From: Rhodococcus pseudokoreensis
GTDB taxonomy: Bacteria > Actinomycetota > Actinomycetes > Mycobacteriales > Mycobacteriaceae
Length of the DNA: 64,000 nt
Direction: 5' to 3'
NCBI RefSeq assembly: GCF_017068395.1
Contig: NZ_CP070619.1
Location: 2,046,001-2,110,000 of the forward strand
Part shown: piece after piece, positions 30,395 through 60,441 of the stretch
Position numbering within the stretch: position 1 is the first letter of the stretch
How the letters are laid out: every line of letters begins with the position of its first letter
Notes under the pieces: model-generated
The model's database searches: none
The model's input: the letters and a program-made list of their open reading frames with translations, nothing else
What the model was told of the DNA's origin: nothing
Made by a program: the position numbers and the translations under genes

Positions 30395-30410
30395 ACGAAC
30401 GTCCGTACGT
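30395..30410. promoter_or_regulatory. Shared palindromic operator, copy A
   Basis: ACGAAC-GTCC-GTACGT: the left half is exact and the right half has one mismatch to the consensus ACGAAC-N4-GTTCGT. It lies 245 bases before the OYE start. Confidence 0.6.
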
Positions 30411-30655
30411 TTAATCTCGAAAGGGATTGCAACCACGGCCATCAGCTCGGCAGCACCGATGGACGTTCGAGCCAATTCCCGACCTTCCGCTCGGCGGGGC
30501 GTCGGCAACCGACAGAAGTTCGCGACTACATCCGCGAAAATGCCGGAGCCTGATCCCGAGATGCCGGCCGATGGTCCGGTGCGGTGGAAATCTCCTGTCG
30601 TGTTCGTAATCGATGCTCGCGGGCAAAGCCCATCCCCATGAAGGAGTTCTCAAGC

Positions 30656-31729
30656 ATGCTGTTCGACAACATCAAGCTAGGCTCGATCGAGCTGCAGAAT
30701 CGAGTCGTCATGGCGCCGATGACGCGCGTGCGCGCCTCCGCGACCGGCTTGCCGTCCCCCAGTACCGCGCTCTACTACGCTCAGCGCGCATCCGCGGGAC
30801 TGATCGTCAGTGAAGGCATCTCCCCGTCCAAGCAGGGACAGTCCGAACCGAATATTCCCGGTCTCTACAACGACGAGCAGGAAGCCGCGTGGCGCCCGAT
30901 CACGAAGGCGGTGCATGACGCGGGCGGACGGATCTTCGCTCAGATCATGCACGGTGGCCGAATCGGTCATCCCGAGATCAACGGAATGCAGCCACTGGGG
31001 GCCTCCGCGATCGCAGCACAGGGCAGGATCTTCAACTCCGGCGGCCGCCTCGCATTCGTAACGCCCGTCGAGATGACGATCGAGCAGATCCAGGAACAGA
31101 TCAGAGTGTTCGTCGATACGGCGAAGCGGGCGATCGCCGCCGGATTCGACGGAGTGGAACTCCATGGCGCCAACGGCTACCTGATCCAGCAGTTCCTCTC
31201 GGACAACAGCAACCAGCGCACCGACCGGTACGGCGGATCACCCGAAAACCGGGCGCGCTTTGCGATCGAGGTGGTCACCGCCGTCAGCGAGGCGATCGGG
31301 GCCGACCGGGTCGGCATCCGGTTCTCCCCCGGTGGGAAGTTCCACGACATGAACGAGAGCGATCCTGCCGGCCTGTACACCATCGTGCTCGAGGCCCTCA
31401 ATCCGCTCGGACTGGCCTACTTGCACATCCTCGAGACGGCGTCGGACGAAATCAACGACACGCTGCGCGGTCTCTGGACCGGACCGCTGATCGTCAACCC
31501 TGCCCTGGTCGCGAGCTCGGAGTTCGCCAACAAGGCAGACGCGGACCGGTGGCTCGCGCGAGGCGCCGACTTGATCGCCTTCGGCCGGTACTTCATCTCC
31601 AACCCCGACTTGGTTCGTCGCCTGCGCGACGATCTCGAGCTGGCCGAACCCGATCTCGAGACCTTCTACTCGGGTGGCGACAAGGGCTACATCGATTATC
31701 CGGATTGGTCGCCGACCGCCGTGGGGTAG
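30656..31729 (+). CDS. Old Yellow Enzyme-type alkene reductase (NemA-like)
   Basis: A 357-residue FMN-dependent ene-reductase with a TIM barrel. Visible landmarks are ELQNRVVMAPMTRVRA at the start, IFAQIMHGGRIGHP, GFDGVELHGANGYLIQQFL, NQRTDRYGGS and IAFGRYFISNPDL. The HGAN segment carries the usual substrate-binding His and Asn. It reduces carbon-carbon double bonds activated by a carbonyl or nitro group. The ATG at 30656 has AAGGAG 9 bases upstream. The shared palindrome lies in its control region, linking it to the catabolic region beyond 37 kb. Confidence 0.92.
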   Translation: MLFDNIKLGSIELQNRVVMAPMTRVRASATGLPSPSTALYYAQRASAGLIVSEGISPSKQGQSEPNIPGLYNDEQEAAWRPITKAVHDAGGRIFAQIMHGGRIGHPEINGMQPLGASAIAAQGRIFNSGGRLAFVTPVEMTIEQIQEQIRVFVDTAKRAIAAGFDGVELHGANGYLIQQFLSDNSNQRTDRYGGSPENRARFAIEVVTAVSEAIGADRVGIRFSPGGKFHDMNESDPAGLYTIVLEALNPLGLAYLHILETASDEINDTLRGLWTGPLIVNPALVASSEFANKADADRWLARGADLIAFGRYFISNPDLVRRLRDDLELAEPDLETFYSGGDKGYIDYPDWSPTAVG

Positions 31730-31742
31730 TCAACAACGCAGT

Positions 31743-31779
31743 GTGGTGGCCGAGCCGGATTACTTCGGCCGGCCACCAC
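31743..31779 (+). terminator. Hairpin after Old Yellow Enzyme
   Basis: Arms GTGGTGGCCG (31743-31752) and CGGCCACCAC (31770-31779) pair perfectly, 13 bases after the stop. There is no T-run, as is common in actinobacterial terminators. Confidence 0.6.
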
Positions 31780-32190
31780 GTTGCTTCCAGCCCACGCCAC
31801 CTCGTGTACATGCCCACCCGGTAAATCATCGGCGGCGTCTCGATGCCGAAACACACAAGTACCCCGTGCCTGTTCTTCACGGAACATGCTTCCCCACTGA
31901 GCTGCTGGTGGTGGGCGCTCGACCGCAAGCGGTTGCTCGGCATGCGGGCGTGCCACCGCTGAGTCGTCCGGGCAGGCGTACTCACCGGATATCAGAACGG
32001 GAGAGCGGGAAGCGCTACTTGATCTTGACCGGACGGACCACCAACCTCGACCGACCACACCAGCCGCGCGATCTGACTACTCACCGACGATTCGAGGGTT
32101 CGGATTGGGGTTATGCTCGCATCGATGCTCGAGAGGCGATTTGCATGACCCAGGGATTGTGGACACCGAGGCACAAGATCGAGGTCTGCC
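31780..32190. other. Gene-free stretch before the PknK-like gene
   Basis: About 410 bases with only short incidental frames and no recognisable remnant. It should contain the promoter of the kinase gene, but no box pair stands out. Confidence 0.4.
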
Positions 32191-36969: not shown

Positions 36970-36985
36970 ACGAGTGTTTGTTTGC
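36970..36985. promoter_or_regulatory. Weak copy of the shared palindrome, copy J
   Basis: ACGAGT-GTTT-GTTTGC matches the consensus only partly (four mismatches across both halves). It lies between the two LuxR genes and may be chance. Confidence 0.2.
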
Positions 36986-37662: not shown

Positions 37663-38109
37663 TCAGTGCGCCTCTGCGTGGGTGCCGACTCGGACGTATC
37701 CGGCGAGCGAGCTGTCGTCGACCTCGGGCAGATTGACGACGATGTTCTCGGGCGTGCGGGTGGTGAGCCAGATGAGTTCCTCGGTGGTACTCATGTTGGC
37801 TTCAACGTGCGGCATGAACGGTGGGACGAAGACGAAGTCCCCTTCGGACATGTCGATGTACTCGCTAAAGTTTTCACCGAAGTAGATTCGCGCCTTGCCG
37901 GCCAGAACGTACCCGCCGGTTTCGGCCTCACCGTGATGGTGCGGCAGGGATCGATATCCGGGCTCGTTGAAGACTTTCCCGAACCAAATCTTCGTGGCCG
38001 GCGTGTGCTGGACGCTGACCCCGGAGACACGCACGGCGCCACCGGATTGGCCCGTGTTCTGCGCTTCCTGTCCCTTGCGAGTGACTACCGGCTTGTCGTG
38101 TTCGGCCAT
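37663..38109 (-). CDS. Cupin-domain protein
   Basis: A 148-residue single-domain cupin. The first motif appears as SLPHHHGEAETGGYVLAG, with a His triplet and Glu for metal binding. The second is near GDFVFVPPFMPHVEANM. Small cupins of this kind include dioxygenases and isomerases. AAAGGAATC precedes the ATG, and a shared palindrome lies only 14 bases before the start, so it is probably tightly controlled with the surrounding catabolic units. The reaction is unknown. Confidence 0.82.
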   Translation of the reverse strand: MAEHDKPVVTRKGQEAQNTGQSGGAVRVSGVSVQHTPATKIWFGKVFNEPGYRSLPHHHGEAETGGYVLAGKARIYFGENFSEYIDMSEGDFVFVPPFMPHVEANMSTTEELIWLTTRTPENIVVNLPEVDDSSLAGYVRVGTHAEAH

Positions 38110-38123: not shown

Positions 38124-38139
38124 AAGAACAAACGTTCGC
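38124..38139. promoter_or_regulatory. Shared palindromic operator, copy E
   Basis: AAGAAC-AAAC-GTTCGC, one mismatch per half to the consensus, 14 bases upstream of the cupin start. Confidence 0.55.
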
Positions 38140-38213: not shown

Positions 38214-38711
38214 TCAGTGAAGCAATTCGGGGCGTCGGCGAATCATGAAGCTGCTACGGAAGGTCATCACCGCTTCGCCTCGCTGATTGAGTGCGCTGTA
38301 GGCGAAGGACCAGATGCCCTGGTCGGGCTTCTTGGTGGGGCGGGCGGCAATGAGCTCGGCTTCGGGATGCAGGGTGTCGCCGATGAGCACCGGACGCACG
38401 GCGCGCACCTCGTCGAGGCCGAGCCAGGCGACGACGTTGTTGAAGTAGCCGGTCTGGGTCGTCAGCCCCAGGGCGAGCGAGAGCGTGAACGGTCCGTGCG
38501 CGATCCGCTGCCCGAACTGGGTGCCGGCGGCGTACTCCTCGTCGAGGTGCAGGGAGACGATGTCGCAGGTCAGCCCCGCCCACTGCACCAGGTGTGCGTC
38601 GGTGACAGTCATGCCGGGGCCGCGGAGTACGTCCCCCAGGTCGAGGTCCTCCCACCAGCGATCGGGCTGCCCGATCACTCGGGCGGCAGTGCTGACGTCG
38701 TTGATTGTCAT
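38214..38711 (-). CDS. MaoC-like hydratase (first copy)
   Basis: A 165-residue single hot-dog-fold MaoC protein. The hydratase signature is seen as QWAGLTCDIVSLHLDEEYA and FGQRIAHGPFTL, with the conserved catalytic Asp and His of (R)-enoyl-CoA hydratases expected here, then RPVLIGDTLHPEAEL. It is divergent from the CitE-type lyase gene and shares its control region. GAGGAG lies just upstream of the ATG. It probably hydrates an enoyl-CoA made in this pathway. Confidence 0.85.
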   Translation of the reverse strand: MTINDVSTAARVIGQPDRWWEDLDLGDVLRGPGMTVTDAHLVQWAGLTCDIVSLHLDEEYAAGTQFGQRIAHGPFTLSLALGLTTQTGYFNNVVAWLGLDEVRAVRPVLIGDTLHPEAELIAARPTKKPDQGIWSFAYSALNQRGEAVMTFRSSFMIRRRPELLH

Positions 38712-38753: not shown

Positions 38754-38769
38754 ACGAGCGATTGTTCGT
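38754..38769. promoter_or_regulatory. Shared palindromic operator, copy C
   Basis: ACGAGC-GATT-GTTCGT: one mismatch in the left half, right half exact. It is 42 bases from the MaoC start and 225 bases from the lyase start, so it could control both directions. Confidence 0.65.
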
Positions 38770-38994: not shown

Positions 38995-39885
38995 ATGCGA
39001 CCCCTACGTTCTCTCCAGTTCGTGCCGGCTCATCGTGAGGGCTGGGCGCAGAAGGCAGTGCGCGCCGGCGCCGACGCGGTGATCCTCGATCTCGAGGATT
39101 CGGTCCCCGAGCCGAGCAAGGCCGATGCCCGTGCACTGGCAGCCGCGACGATCGACACCCTGCGACGCGAGCACCCCGAGGTGACGGTGCTGGTGCGCCC
39201 GAACCCCCTCGATACCGACCACTTCGGCAAAGATCTCCACGCCGTCGTCCGCGCCGGGCTCGGCGGTCTGCTTCTGCCGAAGATCTACGGCGCGCGGGAG
39301 GTGCTCGATTTCGCGGCTCTGCTCGAGCACTTCGAGATCGAGGCTGCACTCGTCCGCGGCAGTGTGGAGGTGATCCCCACCCTCGAGACCGCGAAGTCGC
39401 TGGTGAACTGCGAGGCGATTGCCGCCGCGCATCCGCGGGTCGCGTCGCTGATGGTGGCCGCCGCCCGCGATGCCGACGTCTCGCGCGAGGTCGGTTTCGA
39501 GTGGACGGCCGAGGGCCTCGAGACACTTCATTACCGCAGCAAAGCGGTGCTCGCTTGTCGTGCCGCCGGCTTGGCCCACCCCATCGTGGGGCTGTGGCAG
39601 GAGATCTCCGATCTGGACGGATTGCGCCGATTCGCCGAGGGCAACCGTCGACTCGGCTTTACCGGCCAGGTCCTCATCCACCCCTCGCACATCGAGACGG
39701 TCAATGACGTCTATGCCCCGGACCCGAAAGTCGTCGACCGCTTCCGGCGCATGATCGAGGCTTTCGAACAGGCCCAGGCGCAGGGCCAGGCAGCCGCCCT
39801 CTTCGAGGGCGAACACGTCGATATCGCGCACGTCAAGACCGCCCGCGGCGTGGTCGCCCTCGCCGAATCCATCAGTTCGCAGTAA
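38995..39885 (+). CDS. CitE-type CoA ester lyase (HpcH/HpaI family)
   Basis: A 296-residue lyase related to citrate lyase beta, malyl-CoA and citramalyl-CoA lyases. Landmarks are RSLQFVPAHREGW, the acidic AVILDLEDSVPEPSKADAR, RPNPLDT, EVIPTLETAKSL and VLIHPSHIETVND. It cleaves a beta-hydroxyacyl-CoA to a shorter CoA ester plus a keto acid or ketone body. GAGGAAG precedes the ATG. A MaoC hydratase follows 27 bases on, so hydration then cleavage is likely. The chain is a candidate 3-hydroxy-3-methylglutaryl-CoA or citramalyl-CoA type lyase by analogy with the mycobacterial leucine cluster. Confidence 0.87.
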   Translation: MRPLRSLQFVPAHREGWAQKAVRAGADAVILDLEDSVPEPSKADARALAAATIDTLRREHPEVTVLVRPNPLDTDHFGKDLHAVVRAGLGGLLLPKIYGAREVLDFAALLEHFEIEAALVRGSVEVIPTLETAKSLVNCEAIAAAHPRVASLMVAAARDADVSREVGFEWTAEGLETLHYRSKAVLACRAAGLAHPIVGLWQEISDLDGLRRFAEGNRRLGFTGQVLIHPSHIETVNDVYAPDPKVVDRFRRMIEAFEQAQAQGQAAALFEGEHVDIAHVKTARGVVALAESISSQ

Positions 39886-39912
39886 CCGCAACAACCTCGT
39901 AAGGAACCGACA

Positions 39913-40380
39913 ATGAGTGGACTGTACTTCGAAGAGCTCGAACCGGAGCTCGTCATCAAGCACGCGGTGACCCGCACCGTCACCGAGACCGACAATCTGC
40001 TGTTCACGACGCTCACCTTGAACGTCCAGCCCCTGCATCTCGACGCCGAGTTCGCCAAGAACAGCATGTACGGCGAGCGCATCGTCAACAGCGTCTTCAC
40101 CCTCGGCGTCGTGGTCGGCATCCCGGTGCAGGAGACCACCCTCGGAACCACACTTGGCAATCTCGGGTTCGAGGAGATCGCCTTCCCTGCGCCCGTGCTG
40201 ATCGGCGATACCCTTCGGGTCGAGACCCAGATCCTGTCTCGCCGTGAGTCGAAGTCGCGCCCGGACACCGGCATCGTGCGATTCGAGCACCGCGGGTTCA
40301 ACCAGAACGACAAGCTGGTGTGCCGCGTGCAGCGGTCCGGCCTGATGCTCAAGAAGCCCGCCGAGGTCGCTGTCTCATGA
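39913..40380 (+). CDS. MaoC-like hydratase (second copy)
   Basis: A 155-residue hot-dog-fold hydratase. It reads TVTETDNLLFTTLTLNVQPL, DAEFAKNSMYGERIVNS and FPAPVLIGDTLRVETQIL, typical of mesaconyl/itaconyl-CoA hydratase-like MaoC proteins that work with CitE lyases. It lies between the lyase and the FAH gene and overlaps the latter by the four bases ATGA. It probably makes the tertiary or secondary 3-hydroxyacyl-CoA that the lyase cleaves. Confidence 0.85.
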   Translation: MSGLYFEELEPELVIKHAVTRTVTETDNLLFTTLTLNVQPLHLDAEFAKNSMYGERIVNSVFTLGVVVGIPVQETTLGTTLGNLGFEEIAFPAPVLIGDTLRVETQILSRRESKSRPDTGIVRFEHRGFNQNDKLVCRVQRSGLMLKKPAEVAVS

Positions 40381-41213
40381 GGCTGGCCACGCTGCGCCTG
40401 AACGGCTCGACCGCCGCCGCCCGGATCGACGGCGAACAGGCGGTGCTGATCGAGCCGTTCCCCAGCCTTTCGGATCTGCTGCGCGACCCGCACTGGCAGC
40501 GCATCGCCACCGAGGCAGCCGGGCAGGTCGTCGAGCTCGGTGCCGTGGAGTACGCGCCCGTGGTTCCGCACCCGACGAAGATCGTGTGCGTGGGCCTGAA
40601 CTATGCGAATCACATCGAGGAGATGGGCCGCGAACTCCCCCGCTACCCGACGTTGTTCGCCAAATTCCCCGAAGCACTTATCGGCGCCTACGACGACATC
40701 CACGTTCCCTCCTACGCCGATCAGCAGGTGGATTGGGAAGGAGAGCTCGCCGTCGTCATCGGCAAGACTGCGAGAACGGTCCTGGCCGCCGATGCCGGCG
40801 AGTACATCGCCGGCTTCGCGGTCGCCAATGATGTCACCATGCGCGACTACCAGTATCGAACGCAACAGTGGCTGCAGGGCAAGACCTTCGAAGGAACCTG
40901 CCCGCTCGGTCCGACGCTGGTGACCCCGGACGAGTTTTCGCTCGGCGCCACACTGAACACCGTCGTCGACGGCACCACGGTCCAGGCGGACTCGACCGGC
41001 GACCTGGTGTTCACCCCCGCCCGGTTGATCGAGTACATCTCCCACATCGTCACCCTGCAGGCCGGAGACGTGATCTTGACCGGCACCCCCGGCGGGGTCG
41101 GCCACCCGACCGGAACACATCTGTCCGATGGCCAGACCCTCACCACGGAGATCACCGGCCTGGGCACGCTGCGCAACACCGTGCGCGTTGCCGCCCCGGT
41201 CCCGGTCGGCTGA
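40377..41213 (+). CDS. Fumarylacetoacetate hydrolase (FAH) family protein
   Basis: A 278-residue FAH-superfamily enzyme with a short N-terminal domain and the metal-binding catalytic core: IVCVGLNYANHIEEMG, WEGELAVVIGKTA, GFAVANDVTMRDYQ, KTFEGTCPLGPTLV, and a final TLQAGDVILTGTPGGVG. Members cleave acylpyruvates, hydrate 2-hydroxydienoates or decarboxylate oxaloacetate. It is coupled to the MaoC gene by ATGA overlap, so it acts in the same route, probably on a keto acid released by the lyase. The exact reaction is open. Confidence 0.9.
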   Translation: MRLATLRLNGSTAAARIDGEQAVLIEPFPSLSDLLRDPHWQRIATEAAGQVVELGAVEYAPVVPHPTKIVCVGLNYANHIEEMGRELPRYPTLFAKFPEALIGAYDDIHVPSYADQQVDWEGELAVVIGKTARTVLAADAGEYIAGFAVANDVTMRDYQYRTQQWLQGKTFEGTCPLGPTLVTPDEFSLGATLNTVVDGTTVQADSTGDLVFTPARLIEYISHIVTLQAGDVILTGTPGGVGHPTGTHLSDGQTLTTEITGLGTLRNTVRVAAPVPVG

Positions 41214-41285: not shown

Positions 41286-41618
41286 AGTGGCCGTCGCTCC
41301 CGCGTGCATCGTTCGAGCTCTCTCCGACCCCAGATCGCGAAAGGCAGGTTCCTGCCCAGGCGTTCGCTCACGGTCGCCTCTACCCCGCGGCAACCTGGGC
41401 GCACGTGCGGTTGCTCACCGACGCAACGGAGTTGGTGAATCGACGACGGGCAAGCCAGGCGCGGCTGCAGTCCGGCAGGCGTGGGACGGCAAAGAAGTGG
41501 CTGATTCTCCTGGTAGCGGCATGCCGCAGATCACCCGTTGACGAATGGTGTGCTCTACGCCACAATACAAACAAACGAGCAAACGTTCGTCAGTATCTGG
41601 CATCGAGAAGGAAAATCC
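41286..41618. other. Intergenic region before the sugar-type ABC operon
   Basis: About 330 bases. No gene is seen. The right part carries a possible promoter, TTGACG (41538-41543) and CACAAT (41561-41566) with 17-base spacing, and the shared palindrome. Confidence 0.45.
41575..41590. promoter_or_regulatory. Shared palindromic operator, copy D
   Basis: ACGAGC-AAAC-GTTCGT: one mismatch left, right half exact. It lies 28 bases before the binding-protein start and over the expected transcription start. Confidence 0.65.
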
Positions 41619-42743: not shown

Positions 42744-42776
42744 AAGCCGGGCACGAGGGACGAGGAGTGGTCAACA

Positions 42777-45347: not shown

Positions 45348-45351
45348 CGCC

Positions 45352-47225: not shown

Positions 47226-47273
47226 CGACCGCATTTTCCGTCACCAGACCCCAACAGAGAAGGACGAAGATCA

Positions 47274-47627: not shown

Positions 47628-47674
47628 ATCGCTCGGCGTCCCTAATACGCAGACACTTCAGTTAGGAGCCCGTC

Positions 47675-48535: not shown

Positions 48536-48578
48536 TTAATCTTCCCAGACCTACACCCTCACAGGAGGATTCGACACC

Positions 48579-49091
48579 ATGAACACCACCACCGCGGACG
48601 TGAGCGTCAGCGAGCTCGCCGAGCGCCTCACGCGACTCGAAGACGTCCGCGCAATCGAGCAGCTCAAGTACCGCTATGCCGGGTTCTGCGACAACGGCTA
48701 CGACCCGGAAGGTATTGCCACCCTGTTCGTCGAAGACGGCCGGTGGGTCGTGGACGGCGAGGGTGGCTCCATGACCGGCCACGAGGAGATCAAGGCGCAT
48801 TTCCGGGCGTTGTCGGACAAGATCACCTGGGCTCTGCACTACATGATCGCCCCCCGTGTGGAACTCGCCGAGGACGGCCAGAGCGCAACCGGATACTTCT
48901 ACCTGCTGTGCCTGTGCACCATCGAGAACAGTCAGGACGCCACCAAGAAGGATCCGGTCATTCTGACGATCAACTACACCGATCAGTTCGTCAAGCGGGA
49001 CGGCGCCTGGTATTTCCAGGAACTGCGTGGCCGCACCCACCAGGTATCGAACTGGGACCAGGGCTGGGTCAAGCAGCCCTTCCGCGACTGA
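48579..49091 (+). CDS. SnoaL-like (NTF2-fold) protein
   Basis: A 170-residue SnoaL_4-type protein (DVRAIEQLKYRYAGFCDNGY, EGIATLFVEDGRWVVDGEGG, INYTDQFVKRDGAWYFQELR). AGGAGG precedes the ATG. It is the last gene of the transporter operon before a hairpin. It resembles the protein at 29465 and may be a dehydratase, isomerase or hydrolase acting on a small ketone or acid; the reaction is unknown. Confidence 0.83.
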   Translation: MNTTTADVSVSELAERLTRLEDVRAIEQLKYRYAGFCDNGYDPEGIATLFVEDGRWVVDGEGGSMTGHEEIKAHFRALSDKITWALHYMIAPRVELAEDGQSATGYFYLLCLCTIENSQDATKKDPVILTINYTDQFVKRDGAWYFQELRGRTHQVSNWDQGWVKQPFRD

Positions 49092-50796: not shown

Positions 50797-52080
50797 CTAG
50801 AGCCGGGAGCGGCGAGCGCACTCCACGCTCAACAGCCCGAGTACTCCGATGGTGACCATGGCGTAGGTGGCACTGCCGGTGGTGTCGATGATCAGCCCCA
50901 GCATCGGGGCGGCCAGTACGGCGCCGACATTGCTGACGGTCACGATAAGTCCACTCGTCTGGTAATTCGCCTGCGGCTGAGACAGTTCCGCTGCCCACGC
51001 CCAGTAGGTGCCACCGTACAACGAGGCGGCCAGAAACATCATGCACAGGTAGATCCCGAGGGTGCTCGCGGGAATCCCGGGCAGTGCGACCACCATGATG
51101 CCGGCCAGGCCGGCACCGATCATGTTCGTCTGGAAGCGTTCGCCGCGGAAGAGTCGGTCCGACATCAGCCCGCCGACGGGGGCGGCGACGAGTTTGAACA
51201 TGAAGGTGACGCCGATGATCGCCGAGGCTTCGAGCAGTGTCATGCCGCGGTCTTGTTCGAGGAACAATGGCAGGGCGTAGGAGAGGCCGTAGAGGGTGAT
51301 CGCCGTCCCTGCCCCGTACAGCGAGGACCACCACACCCGGGAGCTGCGAAGCGCCTCGGCCAGCGATCCCGGCTTGGGCAGCGCATCGAAACGGGTCGAG
51401 TGCGGGCGGCGGAGCCCGACGGGTTCGGCCACGAGGGCGTCCATCGAGGGCACACCGGGGTGAGCCATGCGGAAGTCCCTGACCGTGAGCACGAACAACG
51501 CACCGCAGGCGACGCTCGGGACCACGGTCAGCCACATCGAGGCGATCTCCCACGACATGCCGCCGTCGGTGAGCAGCGGCCCGGCGAACGAGGTGATGGA
51601 GAAGCCGACGCCGAGGAAGCCCATCAGCAGGCCGGTCGCGAACCCGCGCCGGTTCTTGGGGAACCACAAGGAGGCGTGCGTGGCCAGGGACGCATTCATC
51701 ACACCGCCGCAGCAGCCCAGGAGCAGACGCAGTACGAGCATGCCGGCGTAGGACTCACCGACCACCGGGATCAACAGCGCCGAGACGGCGTTGCAGAGCA
51801 GGCCGATGACGACGATCTTCTTCACCCCGATACGGGCGGCCCACTTGCCGGCGAAGACCGGAACCACGCAGAACGTGAGCATCGATGCGGTGGTGAGCAA
51901 CGACAGCTGGGTGGCGTTGATCCCCCAGTCGTCCTGGATGACTGTGCCGAACACGGCGACGGTGTTCAGACCGATGAAGCAGCACATGAAGCACAGCAGG
52001 CTGACCAGCAGGACCCACCAACTGTAGAGGGGCGCGCGCGTGTAGGTCACACGCGCGCCGGTGAGCGTCGATGTTGTCAT
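50797..52080 (-). CDS. MFS transporter
   Basis: A 427-residue major facilitator protein with about twelve hydrophobic segments and a long central loop around residues 195-240. The loop after helix 2 reads GKWAARIGVKKIV, and the equivalent in the second half is GGLMSDRLFRGE. It looks like the oxalate/formate or monocarboxylate-type branch by general layout. The ATG at 52080 is used; a longer reading has no ribosome site. One shared palindrome lies 162 bases upstream. It may take up the growth substrate or export a product. Confidence 0.87.
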   Translation of the reverse strand: MTTSTLTGARVTYTRAPLYSWWVLLVSLLCFMCCFIGLNTVAVFGTVIQDDWGINATQLSLLTTASMLTFCVVPVFAGKWAARIGVKKIVVIGLLCNAVSALLIPVVGESYAGMLVLRLLLGCCGGVMNASLATHASLWFPKNRRGFATGLLMGFLGVGFSITSFAGPLLTDGGMSWEIASMWLTVVPSVACGALFVLTVRDFRMAHPGVPSMDALVAEPVGLRRPHSTRFDALPKPGSLAEALRSSRVWWSSLYGAGTAITLYGLSYALPLFLEQDRGMTLLEASAIIGVTFMFKLVAAPVGGLMSDRLFRGERFQTNMIGAGLAGIMVVALPGIPASTLGIYLCMMFLAASLYGGTYWAWAAELSQPQANYQTSGLIVTVSNVGAVLAAPMLGLIIDTTGSATYAMVTIGVLGLLSVECARRSRL

Positions 52081-52242: not shown

Positions 52243-52258
52243 ACGAACGTACGTATGT
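52243..52258. promoter_or_regulatory. Shared palindromic operator, copy B
   Basis: ACGAAC-GTAC-GTATGT: left half exact, two mismatches right. It lies in the control region of the MFS gene. Confidence 0.55.
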
Positions 52259-52417: not shown

Positions 52418-53881
52418 TCAGGCGAGGGAAATGGTGACCGCTTTGCTCTGCAGGTAGCCGTCGAGGGCTTCGCCGCCCATTTCCTTGCCCCAGCCGGATT
52501 GCTTGAATCCGCCGAACGGCAGCGCGGCGTCGAAGACGTTGTAGCAGTTGACCCAGACCGCACCTGCGTTGACCGACTCGGCGAAGCGGTGGGCGCGACC
52601 GACGTTGCTCGTCCACACTCCGGCCGCCAGACCGAAGGTGGTGTCGTTCGCGCGGCGCAGCACCTCGGCTTCGTCATCGAACGGCATCAGCGAAACCACC
52701 GGGCCGAAGATCTCTTCCCGGGCGATGGTCATGTCGTCGTCGACCCCGCCGAGCACGGTCGGCTCGAGGTAGTAGCCGGGTTCGCGGGTCTGGGCACCAC
52801 CGGCGATGATCTGCGCTCCGTCACTGAGCGCGCCCTCGACGAAGGTCTTGACCTTGGTGCGGTGCTGGTCGGAAATCATCGGGCCGACGAGGACGCCGCG
52901 CTCGGCGCTGGGACCGATCTTGATCTGCGGCACCTTGGCGGCGATGCGGGTCTGGACCTCGTCGTAGACCTTGCGCTGCACATACAGCCGCGACCCTGCC
53001 GTGCAGGCCTCACCCTGGGCATAGAGGACGGCACCGAGCACTCCGTCGACCGCGATGTCGAGATCGGCGTCGTCGTAGATGACATTGGGGGATTTGCCGC
53101 CGAGCTCGAGGGTCAGCTTGCTCAGGTTCGATGCCGCCGCGACGACGATCCGCTTACCGGTCTCGACCGAGCCAGTGAATGCGACCTTGTCGACCTGCGG
53201 ATGACCGGCCAGTGGGGCACCGGCGGCCGCGCCCGTTCCGGTGATCACGTTGACCACCCCGTCGGGTACACCGGCTTCGACAGCCAACTCCGCCAGGCGC
53301 AGTGGGGCCAGGGAGGCGAGTTCGGCGGGTTTGAGAACCACGGTGCATCCGGCGGCCAGCGCCGGGGCGAGCTTCCAGATCGCGGCGAGGGCGGCGCCGT
53401 TCCAGGGGATGATCTGGGCAACGACGCCGACCGGCTGCCGCCGGGTGTAGGAGAAGAAGTCTCCGGGGTTCTGCCGCGACAGCGGGATGGTGCGCCCCTC
53501 GAGCTTGGTGGTCCACCCGGCCATGTAGCGCACCAGGTCGGCCATGTTCGGCAGGTCGATATCGCGGATGAACGCGTAGGGCTTTCCGCAGTCCTGGGTG
53601 TCGATGAGCGCGATCTCGTCTGCGTTGGCCTCGATGAGGTCCGCGAATCGGTGCAGGATCCGGGCGCGGGCCTCGGCCGGCATCCGGCGCCACGGGCCGT
53701 CGTCGAATGCACGGCGTGCGGCCTGCACCGCCAGTTCGACGTCGTGCGGGCCGCCGGCGGCGATCTCAGCGAGCTTTTCTCCGGTCGACGGGTTGAAGAC
53801 GTCGACGGTGCCACCTTCGACCGGATCCACCCATTTACCGTCGATCAGTAGTTGATGACGGCTCGGGCTGGTCTCGGACAT
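52418..53881 (-). CDS. Aldehyde dehydrogenase
   Basis: A 487-residue NAD(P)-dependent aldehyde dehydrogenase. Visible catalytic residues are Glu in LELGGKSPN and the nucleophile Cys in GEACTAGSR; also VVAQIIPWNGAAL, FTGSVETGKRI and EEIFGPVVSL. The ATG at 53881 has GGAGAAAAG just upstream, which rules out the longer reading. It forms its own unit with the shared palindrome 116 bases upstream and a hairpin behind. It probably oxidises an aldehyde to the acid that is then activated to a CoA thioester. Confidence 0.93.
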   Translation of the reverse strand: MSETSPSRHQLLIDGKWVDPVEGGTVDVFNPSTGEKLAEIAAGGPHDVELAVQAARRAFDDGPWRRMPAEARARILHRFADLIEANADEIALIDTQDCGKPYAFIRDIDLPNMADLVRYMAGWTTKLEGRTIPLSRQNPGDFFSYTRRQPVGVVAQIIPWNGAALAAIWKLAPALAAGCTVVLKPAELASLAPLRLAELAVEAGVPDGVVNVITGTGAAAGAPLAGHPQVDKVAFTGSVETGKRIVVAAASNLSKLTLELGGKSPNVIYDDADLDIAVDGVLGAVLYAQGEACTAGSRLYVQRKVYDEVQTRIAAKVPQIKIGPSAERGVLVGPMISDQHRTKVKTFVEGALSDGAQIIAGGAQTREPGYYLEPTVLGGVDDDMTIAREEIFGPVVSLMPFDDEAEVLRRANDTTFGLAAGVWTSNVGRAHRFAESVNAGAVWVNCYNVFDAALPFGGFKQSGWGKEMGGEALDGYLQSKAVTISLA

Positions 53882-53997: not shown

Positions 53998-54013
53998 ACG
54001 AACGATTGTTTTC
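53998..54013. promoter_or_regulatory. Shared palindromic operator, copy F
   Basis: ACGAAC-GATT-GTTTTC: left half exact, two mismatches right. It lies between the Old Yellow Enzyme end and the aldehyde dehydrogenase start. Confidence 0.55.
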
Positions 54014-54066: not shown

Positions 54067-55203
54067 TCAGGGGATGTTGCCGCGGTAGCGGGCAGATCGG
54101 TACGGGGTCGGCCAGTCGAGCGTGTCCTCGACGCCGAGTTCCTTTGCCGCCCTGAGCGGCCACATCGGCTCGCGCAGCAGGTTCCGCCCGACGAAGACGG
54201 CGTCGGCGGCCCCGTCGACGAGGAGTTGCTCGGCCTGGGAGGAGTCGGTGATCAACCCGACAGCCGCGACCGGAATGGTGGTCTCGTTGCGGATCCGGCG
54301 AGCGAACGGCACCTGATATCCGGGTCCGACGGTGATTTTCTGCTCCGGGGTCAGGCCTCCGCTGGAAACGTCGACGAGGTCGATGCCGGAACCCTCGAGC
54401 GAGCGAATCAATGCGACGCTGTCGTCGACGTCCCAGCCGTCCTCGGCCCAGTCGGTAGCGGAGATCCGAAGCAACAGCGGCAACTCCTCCGGCCAGACAG
54501 AGCGGACCGCGGCGATGATTTCCCGCAGCAGCCGGGCGCGGCGGTCGGGGTCTCCGCCGTAGTCGTCGGTGCGCCGGTTGGTGATCGGTGACAGGAACTG
54601 ATGGAGCAGGTAGCCGTGTGCGGCGTGGATCTCGACGACCCGGAAGCCTGCGGCCAGCGCACGGGCGGCAGCGTCGGCGAAGTCGGTGACCACCTTCGCG
54701 ATATCGGCCACGGTCATCTCGCGCGGCACGGCCTGGTCCCCCCAGGCCGTCGCCGACGGACCGACTGTCTCCCAGCCGCCCTCGCTAATCGGGACGGTGC
54801 CGTCACCCTCCCACGGAACGTAGGCCGAGGCCTTGCGGCCGGCATGCGCGAGTTGAATACCGGGGATCGATCCGTGCTCGGTGACGAACCTGTTGATGCG
54901 CGCAAACGCCTCGAGCTGCGTGTCGTTCCACAGCCCGGTGCACTTGGGGCTGATCCGCCCTTCCGGACTGACTCCGGTCGCCTCGGTCAGCACCAGCCCG
55001 GCCTTACCCTTGGCGAACGAGCCGAGGTGCACCAGATGCCAGTCGTCGGGTACGCCGTCGTCGGCGGAGAACTGGCACATCGGTGCCACCCAGAGGCGGT
55101 TACGGAAGGTCACACCGCGCAGGGTCAGCGGTGAGAACAGCCGGGTGCGATGAATGGTGGGTTGAGACAACGCAAGCTCCTCAGGTCGCGGTGGTGCGGT
55201 CAT
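54067..55203 (-). CDS. NADH:flavin oxidoreductase (YqjM-like Old Yellow Enzyme)
   Basis: A protein of up to 378 residues, FMN-dependent ene-reductase of the YqjM class: LRGVTFRNRLWVAPMCQFSA near the start with the class-typical Cys, then IPGIQLAHAGRKASA, VVEIHAAHGYLLHQFLSP, NRRTDDYGGD and ADAVFVGRNLLREP. Start choice: ATG 55203 overlaps the cupin stop (ATGA), while TTG 55170 has GAGGAG at good spacing and fits the family start better. It is downstream of the acyl-CoA dehydrogenase and cupin genes in one operon. It is distinct in class from the OYE at 30656. Confidence 0.9.
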   Translation of the reverse strand: MTAPPRPEELALSQPTIHRTRLFSPLTLRGVTFRNRLWVAPMCQFSADDGVPDDWHLVHLGSFAKGKAGLVLTEATGVSPEGRISPKCTGLWNDTQLEAFARINRFVTEHGSIPGIQLAHAGRKASAYVPWEGDGTVPISEGGWETVGPSATAWGDQAVPREMTVADIAKVVTDFADAAARALAAGFRVVEIHAAHGYLLHQFLSPITNRRTDDYGGDPDRRARLLREIIAAVRSVWPEELPLLLRISATDWAEDGWDVDDSVALIRSLEGSGIDLVDVSSGGLTPEQKITVGPGYQVPFARRIRNETTIPVAAVGLITDSSQAEQLLVDGAADAVFVGRNLLREPMWPLRAAKELGVEDTLDWPTPYRSARYRGNIP

Positions 55204-55601
55204 TCCAGCGTGGAGCCGGCGTTCGGGCCCTCGAGGAACTTGTTGGGAGTCAGGAAGAAGCACAGCACCAGGGCTCCGTTCGGTGCGGAGGCGCGGTGCT
55301 GATTGCCCTGCGGGCGCCAGGAGAAGTTCCCGACGGTAGTCTCGCCCTCCTCGTCGACGATGCTGCCTTCGAGCACCCAGGTCTGTTCGATCCGGACGTG
55401 CTCGTGCAGCGGCAGGACCGAACCGGGCTGCCACCGGAACAGAGCCGTGAGCAGGCCGCTCTCCTCGTCCTTGAGCAGCACCTTGATGTCGATGCCCTCG
55501 TACCCGGAGGGCCGCCAGGGCAAAGCGTCGACGTCGACGTACCGCGAGGCCATCGGCGGCAGTGCGTTGAGTTCGTCGGCGAAGGGGGTGATTGCGGTCA
55601 T
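55200..55601 (-). CDS. Cupin-domain protein (ChrR-like)
   Basis: A 133-residue cupin with the first motif LPLHEHVRIEQTWVLEGSIV (His, His, Glu pattern for metal) and second motif around FSWRPQGNQHRA. It resembles the ChrR/2,4-dihydroxyacetophenone dioxygenase-like cupins. It lies 41 bases after the acyl-CoA dehydrogenase and overlaps the flavin oxidoreductase by ATGA. A dioxygenase or decarboxylase-type role is possible, but nothing in the sequence decides it. Confidence 0.82.
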   Translation of the reverse strand: MTAITPFADELNALPPMASRYVDVDALPWRPSGYEGIDIKVLLKDEESGLLTALFRWQPGSVLPLHEHVRIEQTWVLEGSIVDEEGETTVGNFSWRPQGNQHRASAPNGALVLCFFLTPNKFLEGPNAGSTLE

Positions 55602-55642
55602 GGTGACGTGTCTTTCTGTGTTGTGTTGTGCGGGTATGTATG

Positions 55643-56815
55643 TCAGAACGACCGGGGCAATCCCAGATACTTCTCACCGATGTGGTTACGGAGCATCTCG
55701 TTGGTCAGCGGGGCGAAGGTGTAGAGGCGGGCGTCTCGGAACAACCGCTCCATCGGGTACTCCTTGCTGAACCCCGATCCGCCCATCAGGCGCATCCCGG
55801 CGTCGGTGACGGCGACCGCGGCGTCGGAGGCGGCGATCTTGGCCATGGCGCTGAGAATGTCGGCGCGCTTGCCGGTGGCGGTGGCCTCGGCGGCCTGGAG
55901 CATCAGGGCGCGGGCCGACTCGATCGCGATGGCGCCGTCGACGAGGCGGTGCTGGCCGGCCTGGAAGCTGCCGACCGGGCGCCCGAAGACCTGACGCTGG
56001 CGGCCGTAGTCGACGGCCGCTTCCAGAGCGCCCCGGGCGATCCCGAGGGCGGCAGCAGCGGCGTTGAGCCGTTCCCCGTTCAGGGTGCCGAGCACCTGCC
56101 GGAACCCCTGGTCGATCTGCCCGAGCACGGCGGTGGCGTCGACTTCGACGTTGTCGAAGATGACTTCGCAGGTGTCGAGACTGTGGATGGCGAAGGTGTC
56201 GAGTTCTTTCACCGTGATGCCCGGGGTGTCGGTGGGGACAACGAACATGGTGATGCCGTCGATCGGAGAGGACTCCGGCGTCGAGGTCCGGGCCAGAACG
56301 ATGAGATTCCTCGCGTGCTGCGGGCCCGAGATCCATGTCTTGGCGCCGTTGAGAATCCACCGGCCGTCGTCGGACTGCGTCGCCCGGGTCCGCATGACGC
56401 GGGCGACGTCGGTGCCGCCGTCTGGTTCGGTCAGCGCGAACGCCACCCGTTCGTGGCCGTCGAGGAGTGGGGCCAGGACCGTGCTGCGCTGCTGGTCGGT
56501 GCCATACTCGGTGAGCAGTCCCACTCCCATGTACTGCACGACCAGGCACACCGCCATCGAGGTCGGGCCCGCGGCGAGCTCTTCGAGGACGATGATCTGA
56601 AGTCGTGGGTCGGCGCCGGTGGTGCCGTCGGCCTGGGCGTCGAGTCCGATCAGGCCGGCCTCCCCGAGGGCACGGTACAACTCGAGGTCGAACGCGTTCG
56701 CGTCGTCGAGTTCCCTGACCCGCTGCGCAGGTGCGACCTTCTCGATGATCTCGCGCACCATCTCGCGCAGATCCGCTTGCTCCGTGGTGTCCGGCAGCGT
56801 GCCGCTTCCAATCAT
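55643..56815 (-). CDS. Acyl-CoA dehydrogenase with isovaleryl-type catalytic-residue pattern
   Basis: A 390-residue FAD-dependent acyl-CoA dehydrogenase with FALTEPDGGTDVA, FAD-site GRQRQVFGRPVGSFQ and C-terminal RLMGGSGFSKEYPMER. The usual base in the YEGT motif is absent: the segment reads TFAPLTNEM, with Pro at that position. A Glu is present in LNGERLN, the place where isovaleryl-CoA and long-chain dehydrogenases carry their base. That hints at a 3-methyl-branched substrate, though LNGER-like motifs also occur more widely. ATG 56815 has GGAGGAG upstream. It leads the operon with cupin and YqjM-like genes. Confidence 0.9.
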   Translation of the reverse strand: MIGSGTLPDTTEQADLREMVREIIEKVAPAQRVRELDDANAFDLELYRALGEAGLIGLDAQADGTTGADPRLQIIVLEELAAGPTSMAVCLVVQYMGVGLLTEYGTDQQRSTVLAPLLDGHERVAFALTEPDGGTDVARVMRTRATQSDDGRWILNGAKTWISGPQHARNLIVLARTSTPESSPIDGITMFVVPTDTPGITVKELDTFAIHSLDTCEVIFDNVEVDATAVLGQIDQGFRQVLGTLNGERLNAAAAALGIARGALEAAVDYGRQRQVFGRPVGSFQAGQHRLVDGAIAIESARALMLQAAEATATGKRADILSAMAKIAASDAAVAVTDAGMRLMGGSGFSKEYPMERLFRDARLYTFAPLTNEMLRNHIGEKYLGLPRSF

Positions 56816-56903: not shown

Positions 56904-56919
56904 ACGAACGCACGTTTTT
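56904..56919. promoter_or_regulatory. Shared palindromic operator, copy G
   Basis: ACGAAC-GCAC-GTTTTT: left half exact, two mismatches right; 88 bases from the acyl-CoA dehydrogenase start. Confidence 0.55.
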
Positions 56920-56949: not shown

Positions 56950-56977
56950 TAGACAAACAAACACCCGTTCGTATAAC
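56950..56977 (+). promoter_or_regulatory. Candidate promoter for DUF485-ActP genes
   Basis: TAGACA (56950-56955), 16-base spacer, TATAAC (56972-56977). Palindrome copy H fills the spacer, as expected of a repressor site. Confidence 0.45.
56957..56972. promoter_or_regulatory. Shared palindromic operator, copy H
   Basis: ACAAAC-ACCC-GTTCGT: one mismatch left, right half exact; 134 bases before the DUF485 gene start and 38 bases from copy G, one for each divergent unit. Confidence 0.6.
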
Positions 56978-57106: not shown

Positions 57107-57451
57107 ATGCCTTTCACCGAGACCGCCGTCGACTGGAGTCGGCTCTGGTCCGATCCGGCGATGCTCCGCCTGCGAGATGACCGCCGCAGCTTCTTCACCA
57201 TCGCCTGGAGCGTGTTCGCGGTGGCCTTCTTCGCACTCGTCGGCTTCGCGGCCTTCGCCCCGGAGATCATCGCGAAACGCCCTGTGCCGGGCCTGAGCAT
57301 CGGACTGATCCTCGCCTTGACCTATGTCGCGACCGTGATGAGCCTCGGCGCCTGGTACGTGCGCCGCGCACGTCATTGGGACACTCTCGCCGCAGCCGTG
57401 CTGAGCACGCCCACCACCACTCGGGAGCGGGAGGTCACGGGCAATGTCTGA
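57107..57451 (+). CDS. DUF485 (YjcH-like) small membrane protein
   Basis: A 114-residue protein with two hydrophobic segments (around FFTIAWSVFAVAFFALVGFA and SIGLILALTYVATVMSLGAW) flanked by charged ends, the DUF485 layout. In many bacteria it is encoded directly before the ActP symporter and probably assists it. Here it overlaps the symporter start by 8 bases. ATG 57107 is used with GAAAGGGTG upstream. Confidence 0.85.
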   Translation: MPFTETAVDWSRLWSDPAMLRLRDDRRSFFTIAWSVFAVAFFALVGFAAFAPEIIAKRPVPGLSIGLILALTYVATVMSLGAWYVRRARHWDTLAAAVLSTPTTTREREVTGNV

Positions 57452-59030
57452 CGGATTCAACACCACCGCCGTTGCCGTCACCGTCCTGCTGCTGGCGATC
57501 ACCTTCGTGGCGACCTACTTCGCCTCGCGCCGTACGAAGACCTCGGCGGAGTTCTGGACGGCCGGCGGCGGTATGACCGGACGCAAGAACGGCACCGCCA
57601 TCGCCGGCGATTTCCTGTCCTCGGCCTCGCTGCTGGGGTACGCCGGGCTGGCCTACCTCTACGGCATGGACGGCATCGTCTACGCGATCTTCGCGTGCGG
57701 GATCTTCCTGATGGTGATGTTCCTGATCGCCGAAAAGCTCCGCAACCTTGGGCGTTTCACGTTCGCCGACGCCCTCGCCACCCGGCTGCGGTCCGGTCCG
57801 GTCCGCATCGTCTCGGCGATCTCGACGCTGTTCATCTGCGTCTTCTACCTGCTCGCCCAGATGGTCGCCGGCGGCGTGCTGATGGAGGCACTCGCCGGAA
57901 TCGACTTCTCCTGGGGCGTCGTGATCGCCGCAGTCCTGATGCTGACCTATGTGCTCTTCGGCGGCATGCTCGCCACCACGTGGCTGCAGATCATCAAGGC
58001 CGTCGCCTTGATGAGCGTCGTCGCACTACTGGTGATCCTGGTTCTCGTCCGGATCGACCCCAACCCGCTCAACATCATCGAGCAGGCGATCTCACAGAGT
58101 AAATTCGGCGACCACTACCTGGCGACCGGCAACTCCTTCAAGGGGCCCTGGAACATCATCTCCATGGCGGTGGCCGTGACGTTGTCCGCCGTGGGCCTGC
58201 CCCACGTGCTGATGCGGTTCTTCACCGTCCCCGACGCCATCGAGGCCCGCAAGTCCGCGATCTGGGCGATCAGCCTGATCGGCGGATTCAACGTCCTCAT
58301 CGCCTTCCTCGGCATCTCCGCGCGCGCCGCCCTCGGTGCCGGCGGGGAAGAAATCGCCGGCAAGGGCGGCAATCTCGCCCTGCCCGCCCTGACCGTGTGG
58401 CTCGGCGGCGGCGACGGCTTCGCATCCGACCTGCTGCTGGCACTGGTGGTCGCGGTCTCGATCGCCACACTCCTGGCCGTATCCGCCGGCCTGGTGCTCA
58501 GCGCGTCCAGCACGATCGCCCACGACCTGTGGGCCAAGACGTTCCACCGTCCCGAACGGGAGGAAATGACGGTCGGCCGGATCGCCGCAGTGGCATTGGT
58601 GATCGTCACCGTCGGCGTCACCCTGGCGATCGGCGGCACCCAGAACGTGACCTTCCTGGCCACGCTGGCGACGTCGACCGCGGCGAGCGCGAACTTCCCC
58701 GTGCTGATCATGACACTGCTCTGGCGGCGGATGCGCACCCTCGGGGCCGTAGTCGGCGCATTGTCGGGTCTACTGACGGCGCTGGCTTTGATCCTGACCG
58801 GTCCACTCGTGTGGCCGAGCCTGGCACCGCTGCTGTCGGATTCGCTGTCAACCACCGCCCCGTTCCCGCTGGCCTTCCCCATTCTGCTGTCGGTGCCTGC
58901 AGGATTCCTCGGCTGCATCGTGGGCAGCTACCTCAGTCGCGAGCCTGCCGACGACGCCGCCTTCGACGAACTTCAAGTGCGGGCCCTGACCGGGGCAGGT
59001 CTGGACAAGACGAAGACCCTCTCGCACTGA
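57444..59030 (+). CDS. actP: ActP-like cation/carboxylate symporter (SSS family)
   Basis: A 528-residue sodium:solute symporter with about thirteen membrane segments. Family segments include FASRRTKTSAEFWTAGGGMT, GTAIAGDFLSSASLLGYAGL and SSTIAHDLWAKTF. ActP proteins take up acetate, pyruvate or other short carboxylates. Its place in the regulon suggests uptake of a short-chain acid connected with the pathway. A long hairpin follows directly. Confidence 0.88.
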   Translation: MSDGFNTTAVAVTVLLLAITFVATYFASRRTKTSAEFWTAGGGMTGRKNGTAIAGDFLSSASLLGYAGLAYLYGMDGIVYAIFACGIFLMVMFLIAEKLRNLGRFTFADALATRLRSGPVRIVSAISTLFICVFYLLAQMVAGGVLMEALAGIDFSWGVVIAAVLMLTYVLFGGMLATTWLQIIKAVALMSVVALLVILVLVRIDPNPLNIIEQAISQSKFGDHYLATGNSFKGPWNIISMAVAVTLSAVGLPHVLMRFFTVPDAIEARKSAIWAISLIGGFNVLIAFLGISARAALGAGGEEIAGKGGNLALPALTVWLGGGDGFASDLLLALVVAVSIATLLAVSAGLVLSASSTIAHDLWAKTFHRPEREEMTVGRIAAVALVIVTVGVTLAIGGTQNVTFLATLATSTAASANFPVLIMTLLWRRMRTLGAVVGALSGLLTALALILTGPLVWPSLAPLLSDSLSTTAPFPLAFPILLSVPAGFLGCIVGSYLSREPADDAAFDELQVRALTGAGLDKTKTLSH

Positions 59031-59085: not shown

Positions 59086-59138
59086 CATGCCCGATTGGTC
59101 GCCGATCCCCTCGCCGACCCCGACAAAAGGAGAAATGC

Positions 59139-59456
59139 ATGTCCGTCAAGATCGTTGCGCTCATCACCTCGAAGTCCGAGCTCTCTCGCGACGAATTCCT
59201 CCGGTATTGGAACGTCGAGCACCCCCACTACGTCTGGAAGCTCCCCGAACTCGAGCGCTACGTGCAGAACCCGGCCATCGAGCACCGCAAGGACTGGGCG
59301 TACGACGGGATGGCGGAGCTGTGGTTCCCCTCGGTCGCCGCAGTGGCCCAGGCGTTCTCCTCACCGGAGGCCGACGCGGTGCGCGAGCACGAGGAAGAGT
59401 TCATCGGCGAGATCACCTGGTTCCTCGCCTCCGAGTCGGAGATCGTGCCGGTCTGA
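59139..59456 (+). CDS. EthD-family protein (second copy)
   Basis: A 105-residue dimeric alpha-beta barrel protein (KIVALITSKSELSRDEFLRY, then NVEHPHYVWKLPELERYVQN) of the EthD family. AAAAGGAG precedes the ATG at 59139. It lies after the actP terminator and converges on the thioesterase gene, 14 bases apart. It differs clearly from the EthD protein at 47274. Confidence 0.82.
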   Translation: MSVKIVALITSKSELSRDEFLRYWNVEHPHYVWKLPELERYVQNPAIEHRKDWAYDGMAELWFPSVAAVAQAFSSPEADAVREHEEEFIGEITWFLASESEIVPV

Positions 59457-59470
59457 CGGCTCCGTCTAGC

Positions 59471-60334
59471 TCAGGGTTCGCGCAGCACGCCCTCCTGGGT
59501 TGCCGAGGCGATGCGCGCACCCGCTTCGGTGGTGAAGTCGCAGGTGCACAGGCACCGACCGCCGGTGGCGATCGGGCTGGTCTGCCGACACAGCATCCAG
59601 TCGTTCATGGAGAACTGGCGGTGAAACCACATCGCGTGGTCGATGCTGGCACCGGCGATCACCCGGTTGCCGTACCAGGAGCGCCCGTGCGGCATCAGCG
59701 CCGGATCGAGCAAGGTCAGGTCGCTGACATACGCCAGCAGCGCGGCGTGCAACAGCGGCTCGTCCGGAACCTGAGCCGCCGCGCGCACCCAAAACCGCTG
59801 CTCGGGCTCGCGGGTACCCGCCGCGGCCAGCGCCTCAGGATGCTCGAGAAAGCGGAAATCGAACGGATGAGGCTGCGACCACCACGCCGGCAGCGCCGCG
59901 AACTCCACCTCGAGCCGCTGGTACAGCGGCAACAGCTCGTCCGGTGCCGTCTCGGTCAGCGGCGGGGACCATTCGTGCTCCGGGCCGCTCTGCTCGGTGG
60001 CGAACGACAGCTGCAGCGTCGCCAGCACTGCATCACCCTGGGTAGCGGTGACCAAGCGGGCGCTGAAGGAGCGGCCGTCGCGCAGAACCGTCACCTGGTA
60101 GCTGACGGGTACCTCCGGGTTTCCGCCACGCAGGAACAGCGTGTGCAGCGAATGCGGGTACCGACCCTCGGGCACTGTCGCCCCGGCCGCCATCACGGCC
60201 TGGGCGAGCACCTGCCCACCGAAGAGCCGAGGAAGTCTGCGCACCGCGGTCGGTCCATGGAACCGGTTACCCCCGGTGGGAGTCACACGCAGCGCGTCGA
60301 CCAGCGATTCGAGTTGTTCGGCCGAGGCAATCAC
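59471..60334 (-). CDS. tesB: TesB-type acyl-CoA thioesterase
   Basis: A 287-residue double hot-dog acyl-CoA thioesterase II. Landmarks are RLFGGQVLAQAVMAAG with HSLHTLFLRGGNPEVPVSY in the first half and ASIDHAMWFHRQFSMNDWML in the second, carrying the catalytic Asp region. GTG 60334 is chosen because AAGGAGG lies 8 bases upstream. It is divergent from the carboxylase alpha gene with palindrome copy I between them. It may relieve trapped CoA thioesters during growth on the substrate. Confidence 0.9.
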   Translation of the reverse strand: MIASAEQLESLVDALRVTPTGGNRFHGPTAVRRLPRLFGGQVLAQAVMAAGATVPEGRYPHSLHTLFLRGGNPEVPVSYQVTVLRDGRSFSARLVTATQGDAVLATLQLSFATEQSGPEHEWSPPLTETAPDELLPLYQRLEVEFAALPAWWSQPHPFDFRFLEHPEALAAAGTREPEQRFWVRAAAQVPDEPLLHAALLAYVSDLTLLDPALMPHGRSWYGNRVIAGASIDHAMWFHRQFSMNDWMLCRQTSPIATGGRCLCTCDFTTEAGARIASATQEGVLREP

Positions 60335-60425
60335 CGTCAGCGCCCTCCTTGTCGTCGACCCCGCCCCACGGGGCGGGGCGGGAACCATCGTTGACCAGTT
60401 CCCCCTCGAACGGTACCGTAAGCGA

Positions 60426-60441
60426 ACGTACGATTGTTTGT
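60426..60441. promoter_or_regulatory. Shared palindromic operator, copy I
   Basis: ACGTAC-GATT-GTTTGT: one mismatch in each half. It lies 91 bases from the tesB start and 83 bases from the carboxylase start. Confidence 0.6.

Follow-up and report, generated by a model that had tools for sequence, protein, structure and literature searches.

The window analysed here is a 64,000-nucleotide stretch of the Rhodococcus pseudokoreensis genome (G000:C6:2046001-2110000; 9.87 Mb in six contigs), and the palindromes repeated between its genes, with the consensus ACAAACGAACG-NN-CGTTCGTTTGT, are very probably the operators of one TetR-family repressor that is encoded just past the window end and would silence the cluster around them. 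The reading of this 40-kb block of catabolic and uptake genes as one local TetR regulon is well supported by sequence comparison. The kind of regulon is known; the particular regulator, gene set and food source are apparently undescribed. Among the listed open-access papers, screened by title and start of the abstract (subscription papers lay mostly outside this search), no description of this TetR or its regulon was found, and the accessible part of a transcriptome study of R. opacus 1CP (PMC13101518) contains nothing tied to the cluster. Judged by the TetR protein, whose R. opacus orthologue is 97% identical, the nearest kin with a name are Rhodococcus opacus, R. jostii and further rhodococci. 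The 164 kb around the window were annotated with a simple codon-based gene caller, which places starts approximately and overlooks some genes; positions beyond 64,000 are given in window-equivalent numbering.

Distribution of the palindromes

All nine strong palindromes proposed by an earlier sequence-only reading of the window, as well as its weak tenth copy at 36970, were found at their positions. A two-sided matrix of 24 bp, built from the nine strong copies and scanned over the 164 kb, recovered these ten and added 30126, 66739, 67793 and 69424, leading to 14 sites in a 40-kb block, 11 inside the window and 3 just beyond it. Counting overlapping registers, 29 matrix windows score above 12 in the 164 kb, versus 2, 0 and 0 in three local shuffles. 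The leave-one-out scores of the 14 sites range from 18.7 to 30.7, and a matrix derived from all 14 gave no score of at least 12 in 267,820 bp outside the clusters. Position 59127, which scores 12.9 with the nine-site and 11.4 with the 14-site matrix, was left out of the site count. An equal density of matrix matches elsewhere would have spoken against a regulon; it was not seen, and the scans did not refute the proposal.

For the whole genome a sequence-only model (R1), trained on the 14 sites in both orientations, was run at E <= 10 with 150 of 1112 first-look candidates scored. Its 22 matches correspond to 11 sites, all within one 39-kb stretch (C6:2076392-2115442); since these are training sites, what counts is the absence of any other scoring position.

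None of the 14 sites falls within a called gene, in a block of which 15.5% is intergenic (own gene calls). Measured from the site centre, the closest start in the right orientation, as chosen by us, is 22-254 bp away for 13 sites, near the 14 to 245 bases given earlier for the strong, likewise intergenic copies, and 523 bp for 30126, measured to an old yellow enzyme gene. Information extends about 3 bases past the 16-bp core on either side, and the half-sites repeat at a spacing of 4 bp, giving rise to secondary matches at 4-bp shifts; hypothetically, such an operator of 22-24 bp could seat two overlapping dimers.

The TetR gene beyond the window end

The sequence-only reading had noted the lack of an intact TetR gene between 4 and 64 kb and predicted one just beyond, with a site at its own promoter. 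Both points were borne out. In a genome search with TetR_N (150 of 398 candidates scored) no match fell in the window, the TetR-like open reading frame at 2988-3611 reaching only 21.8 bits versus the cut-off of 24, and a match was located at C6:2113553-2113687 (67553-67687), 3.1-3.7 kb past the window end. The gene extends on the minus strand from 67127 to 67720 in our own call (197 amino acids); the 203-residue form found in many relatives and in one protein from this contig moves the start to 67738. The protein matches TetR_N with 50.2 bits (cut-off 24) and TetR_C_24 with 87.5 bits (cut-off 26.4), and none of the TetR regulators named in NCBIfam (KstR, FasR, PsrA, FadR, AcuR, MftR and others) was reached, the best giving 51.5 bits versus a cut-off of 250.

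The predicted operator upstream of the TetR gene (67793-67808, score 21.4) is kept in relatives of the R. opacus type, R. jostii and R. ruber. Palindromes also precede both neighbours of the gene, namely an acyl-CoA ligase (67847-69373, minus strand; predicted operator 69424-69439, score 25.4) and a mycofactocin-coupled short-chain dehydrogenase/reductase (SDR; 65836-66690, minus strand; predicted operator 66739-66754, score 29.6).

Within the helix-turn-helix, the segment VGSLYNH is present in 11 of 11 TetR proteins whose loci carry the motif, versus 1 of 20 motif-negative ones; locus L029 was left out of this count, and the motif-positive set includes R. jostii (16.9 at the TetR promoter) and L030 (17.8 and 15.2).

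Comparison across genomes

Own genome and 60 relatives were searched for the TetR (E <= 1e-30) and for the motif (E <= 0.5, with a model from the own sites only). The TetR occurs in 8 and the motif in 7 of the 61 genomes: both in 5, TetR only in 3 (G024, G038, G046), motif only in 2 (G009, G045) and neither in 51. Excluding the own genome, the motif is found in 4 of 7 TetR-bearing versus 2 of 53 TetR-free genomes (Fisher p 1.8e-4 with and 9.9e-4 without the own genome, relatedness being ignored). In two genomes of the R. opacus type all motif matches at E <= 1, 11 in G005 and 12 in G006, are confined to 31 kb next to the TetR gene.

The 12 alignable site cores are 97.9% (G006) and 99.0% (G005) identical to their counterparts, as compared to 83.3% and 84.1% for intergenic bases within 100 bp of the sites and 89.7% and 89.6% for coding sequence; sites 30126 and 30395 could not be aligned and were left out. 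Around TetR orthologues from Rhodococcus HM1, Saccharopolyspora, Amycolatopsis, Nocardioidaceae and Pseudonocardiaceae genomes, 29 matrix sites of at least 12 are found in 102,892 bp. The motif likewise flanks orthologues with 52-57% identity in four further actinobacterial lineages. Core genes, including those for the cupin, carboxylase, FAH-type hydrolase and ligase, are partly or wholly present again around the orthologues. In G028, with a TetR of 44% identity, four of six motif matches lie on the contig of the TetR gene. Its carboxylase gene is preceded by a site scoring 27.5, and another, scoring 27.7, separates the TetR gene from the cupin gene. On a megaplasmid of R. ruber (TetR 90% identical) 8 sites of at least 14 were seen in 40 kb, and the gene order is the same except for a missing MFS gene, a missing SDR gene and a cut-off ABC end. 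Among 18 class-level homologues of 37-42% identity no site of at least 12 was present in about 3.5 kb.

These data bear on whether the operators belong to another regulator, for instance a LuxR-type protein of the cluster or a distant TetR, with the adjacent TetR a mere neighbour. Candidates exist: LuxR-type genes occupy 35939-36751 and 37122-37505, TetR_N matches number at least 150 in the genome, and a second TetR-like open reading frame, judged by eye, is located at about 70755. We consider this unlikely, as the sites of other lineages group around orthologues of this very TetR, motif and TetR co-occur over the 61 genomes (a comparison made for the TetR), and VGSLYNH tracks the presence of the motif.

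Evidence weighing against a single repressor

Several observations count against the assignment to one local repressor or against a simple reading of the palindrome. The 16-bp core alone, without its flanks, is not specific: allowing up to 2 mismatches it occurs at 101 places in the genome versus 28 for a reversed-pattern control, and 8 of the 101 lie in the cluster (about 93 outside). R1 missed three of its training sites (30126, 36970 and 67793), one of them that of TetR itself; taken together with the share of candidates scored, this makes weak sites elsewhere possible. General promoter scans picked up 1, 3 and 0 sites versus 0.4, 1.7 and 1.4 in shuffles. The remaining two motif matches of G028 are situated on another contig, and R. 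jostii retains the TetR without the cluster, its TetR promoter carrying a single weak site (16.9), and has a further match of 13.7. No site of at least 12 lies within about 3.5 kb of the remoter TetR genes of G038 and G046, the latter encoding VGSLYNH all the same, nor on the short contig L029 (TetR 44% identical). Finally, G045 (C52:9966, L103) and G009 (C242:4788, L104) carry isolated strong motifs with scores of 25.2 and 29.4 and have no TetR match at 1e-30; these two motifs may be due to chance or to another regulator.

The abundance of the core could also mean that the palindromes arose by chance or form a dispersed repeat that plays no part in regulation, as could the loose consensus: ACGAAC-N4-GTTCGT with up to 3 mismatches is found 61 times in the window, the shuffle mean being 33.8 (sd 5.1; maximum 48 in 100 shuffles), thus an only moderate enrichment of 1.8-fold. 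Such an origin was rejected on score separation and conservation and is, in our view, next to impossible. The 14 core matches sampled from the roughly 93 outside the cluster score between -2.4 and 8.8, and 12 of them lie inside called genes; the separation from the cluster sites is clean, background matches of at least 12 are absent, the footprint is seen in other species, and the motif is associated with one TetR clade.

Promoter context and proposed mechanism

In 7 of 19 site-target pairs a TTGAC box precedes the operator by 26-37 bp, versus a background of 2.3% (binomial p 1.4e-7, pairs treated as independent); seven of the 14 sites lie just downstream of such a box. This placement fits repression at the start site. 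We infer that a TetR dimer, possibly two dimers, would occupy the -10 box, or the bases right after it, in roughly a dozen transcription units, TetR's own included, and that RNA polymerase would be blocked there. The 40-kb cluster predicted to be silenced in this manner would serve uptake and CoA-dependent breakdown of one compound, and a CoA thioester of the pathway probably releases the repressor.

Instead of repressing, the TetR might activate some or all of its targets, given that 12 of the 19 pairs are without a recognisable -35 box at the expected distance upstream and that the families it weakly resembles include the activator FasR (40.2 bits). In most of the best -35/-10-like pairs, however, the site coincides with the -10 box or follows it, though some pairs have it between the boxes, and BkaR and PaaR, which have comparable layouts, are repressors according to the accessible text of PMC3920632 and PMC6651687. 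Activation therefore appears improbable, slightly more so than control by another regulator.

Comparison with known regulators

The nearest parallel to the proposed repressor is PaaR (TTHA0973) of Thermus thermophilus HB8, a TetR repressor whose operator, CNAACGNNCGTTNG, equals the inner 14 bases of the consensus described here (PMC6651687, in part). Single sites of the cluster show 1-3 mismatches to its 10 fixed bases. PaaR is autoregulated and stands beside a CoA-ligase catabolic cluster, as is proposed here, the likeness being one of operator and layout; its effector is phenylacetyl-CoA, going by a title in the reference list of the same paper. Membership in the PaaR system was rejected: the operator core is shared at the level of the consensus, but no paa gene of the paaABCD type was seen among the regulon proteins examined. 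For these reasons PaaR is classed as a system that works alike.

BkaR of mycobacteria (Rv2506, MSMEG_4718) is likewise an autoregulatory TetR repressor, with a 16-bp palindrome core (PMC3920632, in part). Its operator, GTTANTN4ANTAAC, is unlike the one found here and occurs at two places of the genome, C6:1253283 and C6:3786138, neither of them in the cluster; BkaR-type leucine control was rejected on this ground. Within the 3-kb loci of these two places no carboxylase relative was found, and they did not reveal a BkaR locus in the genome. The genes controlled by BkaR comprise a carboxylase, an acyl-CoA dehydrogenase and related genes.

Among solved chains, high matches of the TetR protein include 3vpr (5.3e-17), a Thermus TetR, and KstR2 (4w97, 1.5e-12). 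Both are distant and not orthologues, and, differing from KstR2, no cholesterol ring-degradation set is present among the proteins examined.

Predicted operators and putative targets

The putative targets are named on the basis of position and conservation. At one edge of the block, a weak operator-like palindrome (30126..30141, score 18.7), which cannot be aligned to R. opacus-type genomes, and predicted operator A (30395..30410, 26.6), located 2 bp after TTGACA-18-GATACT, lie upstream of a putative target, old yellow enzyme gene 1 (30656..31729, plus strand; Oxidored_FMN, Pfam 281 bits). The other weak palindrome (36970..36985, 19.2) is found before a LuxR-type gene (37122-37505, GerE domain). 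Counterparts before the same gene exist in G006 (24.0) and G005 (21.6). From this weak site and its counterparts the TetR may control a second regulator.

The predicted operator at 38124..38139 (22.8), of which 16 of 16 bases are kept in G005 and G006, precedes a putative target cupin gene (37663..38109, minus strand) that recurs beside TetR in other genera. The next one (38754..38769, 25.8; TTGAC at -32) is positioned between MaoC-type hydratase 1 (38214..38711, minus strand) and an operon for an HpcH/CitE-type lyase, MaoC 2 and a FAH-family hydrolase (39058..41213, plus strand), all of them putative targets. Predicted operator D (41575..41590, 27.7; TTGAC at -37) precedes a putative target operon (41619..49091, plus strand) encoding a sugar-type ABC transporter, a mycofactocin-coupled SDR (46374-47225), an EthD protein, an F420-dependent LLM oxidoreductase (47675-48535) and a SnoaL-like protein.

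Further along, the predicted operator at 52243..52258 (30.7) overlaps a -10-like box (TTGACA-18-TAACAT, minus strand) next to an MFS transporter gene (50797..52080, minus strand), and that at 53998..54013 (24.5; TTGAC at -33) lies before an aldehyde dehydrogenase gene (52418..53881, minus strand); both genes are putative targets. A divergent gap harbors two predicted operators: 56904..56919 (23.5) on the side of the acyl-CoA dehydrogenase, which together with old yellow enzyme 2 and a ChrR-type cupin forms a putative target group (54067..56815, minus strand), and 56957..56972 (26.9) on the side of putative targets encoding a DUF485 protein and an SSF symporter (ActP/MctC-like; 57107..59030, plus strand). 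The last predicted operator inside the window (60426..60441, 23.1; TTGAC at -35) separates the genes of an acyl-CoA thioesterase (59471..60334, minus strand) and of acyl-CoA carboxylase alpha, an SDR and the start of carboxylase beta (60525..64000, plus strand), again putative targets; the carboxylase operon continues past the window end, where an SDR extends to 65447 (plus strand).

Pathway and substrate

The redox enzymes of the proposed regulon comprise two old yellow enzymes, aldehyde and acyl-CoA dehydrogenases, the F420-dependent LLM protein and several SDRs, two of which exceed the mycofactocin-coupled cut-off. For CoA chemistry there are two MaoC hydratases, the CitE-type lyase, the FAH-family hydrolase, the thioesterase, the acyl-CoA carboxylase and the acyl-CoA ligase, accompanied by two cupins and by sugar-type ABC, MFS and SSF transporters. 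The lyase is closest to malyl-CoA/beta-methylmalyl-CoA lyases. Only two weak solved-structure relatives were found for the ABC binding protein, and none for the acyl-CoA dehydrogenase at the strict limit of 1e-60.

The carboxylase beta subunit scores higher against propionyl-CoA carboxylase (362 bits) than against methylcrotonyl-CoA (287) or geranyl-CoA carboxylase (244), whereby an identity as either of the latter was rejected. Itaconate degradation was rejected as well, with 125.9 bits for the hydratase versus a RipB/Ich cut-off of 340 and 109.4 bits for the lyase versus a RipC/Ccl cut-off of 375. According to the accessible text of PMC5264612, mycofactocin-associated SDRs bind carveol, which makes a terpenoid substrate attractive; the dissimilarity of the carboxylase to geranyl-CoA carboxylase speaks against it. 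From the gene content we infer, with considerable reserve, that a methyl-branched or perhaps terpenoid compound could be the substrate of this CoA-dependent breakdown.

Neighbouring genes and elements

A second repeated element, TTA(A/G)CGATCATT(G/T)A, is present in four copies at 71568, 71684, 82534 and 84354, in a neighbouring module with an aldehyde dehydrogenase, an alcohol dehydrogenase and further genes, and is perhaps the operator of another regulator. The TetR-like open reading frame mentioned above (about 70755-71350), which the gene caller overlooked, is situated between this module and the last operator. At C6:2127615-2128358 two TetR_N domains occur in one open frame of 449 amino acids, an arrangement resembling that of Mce3R.

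Inside the window, 32191-35688 encodes a 1165-residue protein with a Ser/Thr kinase domain, an AAA/STAND-type ATPase and a MalT-like TPR region; R. jostii, which lacks the catabolic genes there, also has a relative next to its TetR gene. Next to the regulon of Saccharopolyspora (L025:16000-19266) a set of radical SAM/SPASM, FMN dehydrogenase and creatininase genes is found, a mycofactocin-like set, and next to that of a Nocardioidaceae genome (L027:15027-17570) a double radical SAM protein with a CofH C-terminal region, which is F420-like.

Implications

Put forward more tentatively still than the substrate, an undescribed TetR subfamily spread over several actinobacterial families may read, via VGSLYNH, one conserved operator of 22-24 bp whose half-sites repeat every 4 bp, and may control an undescribed pathway that combines mycofactocin-coupled and F420-dependent oxidoreductases, a biotin-dependent carboxylase and MaoC/CitE-type hydratase-lyase steps on a methyl-branched or terpenoid substrate. 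With the predicted regulator, operator and target list, a formerly unassigned 40-kb cluster becomes one regulatory unit, and this set carries over to other actinobacteria and to the R. ruber megaplasmid. Removing or titrating the regulator would offer a direct route to the substrate and to switching on the pathway, and the operator-regulator pair would be a candidate sensor part.

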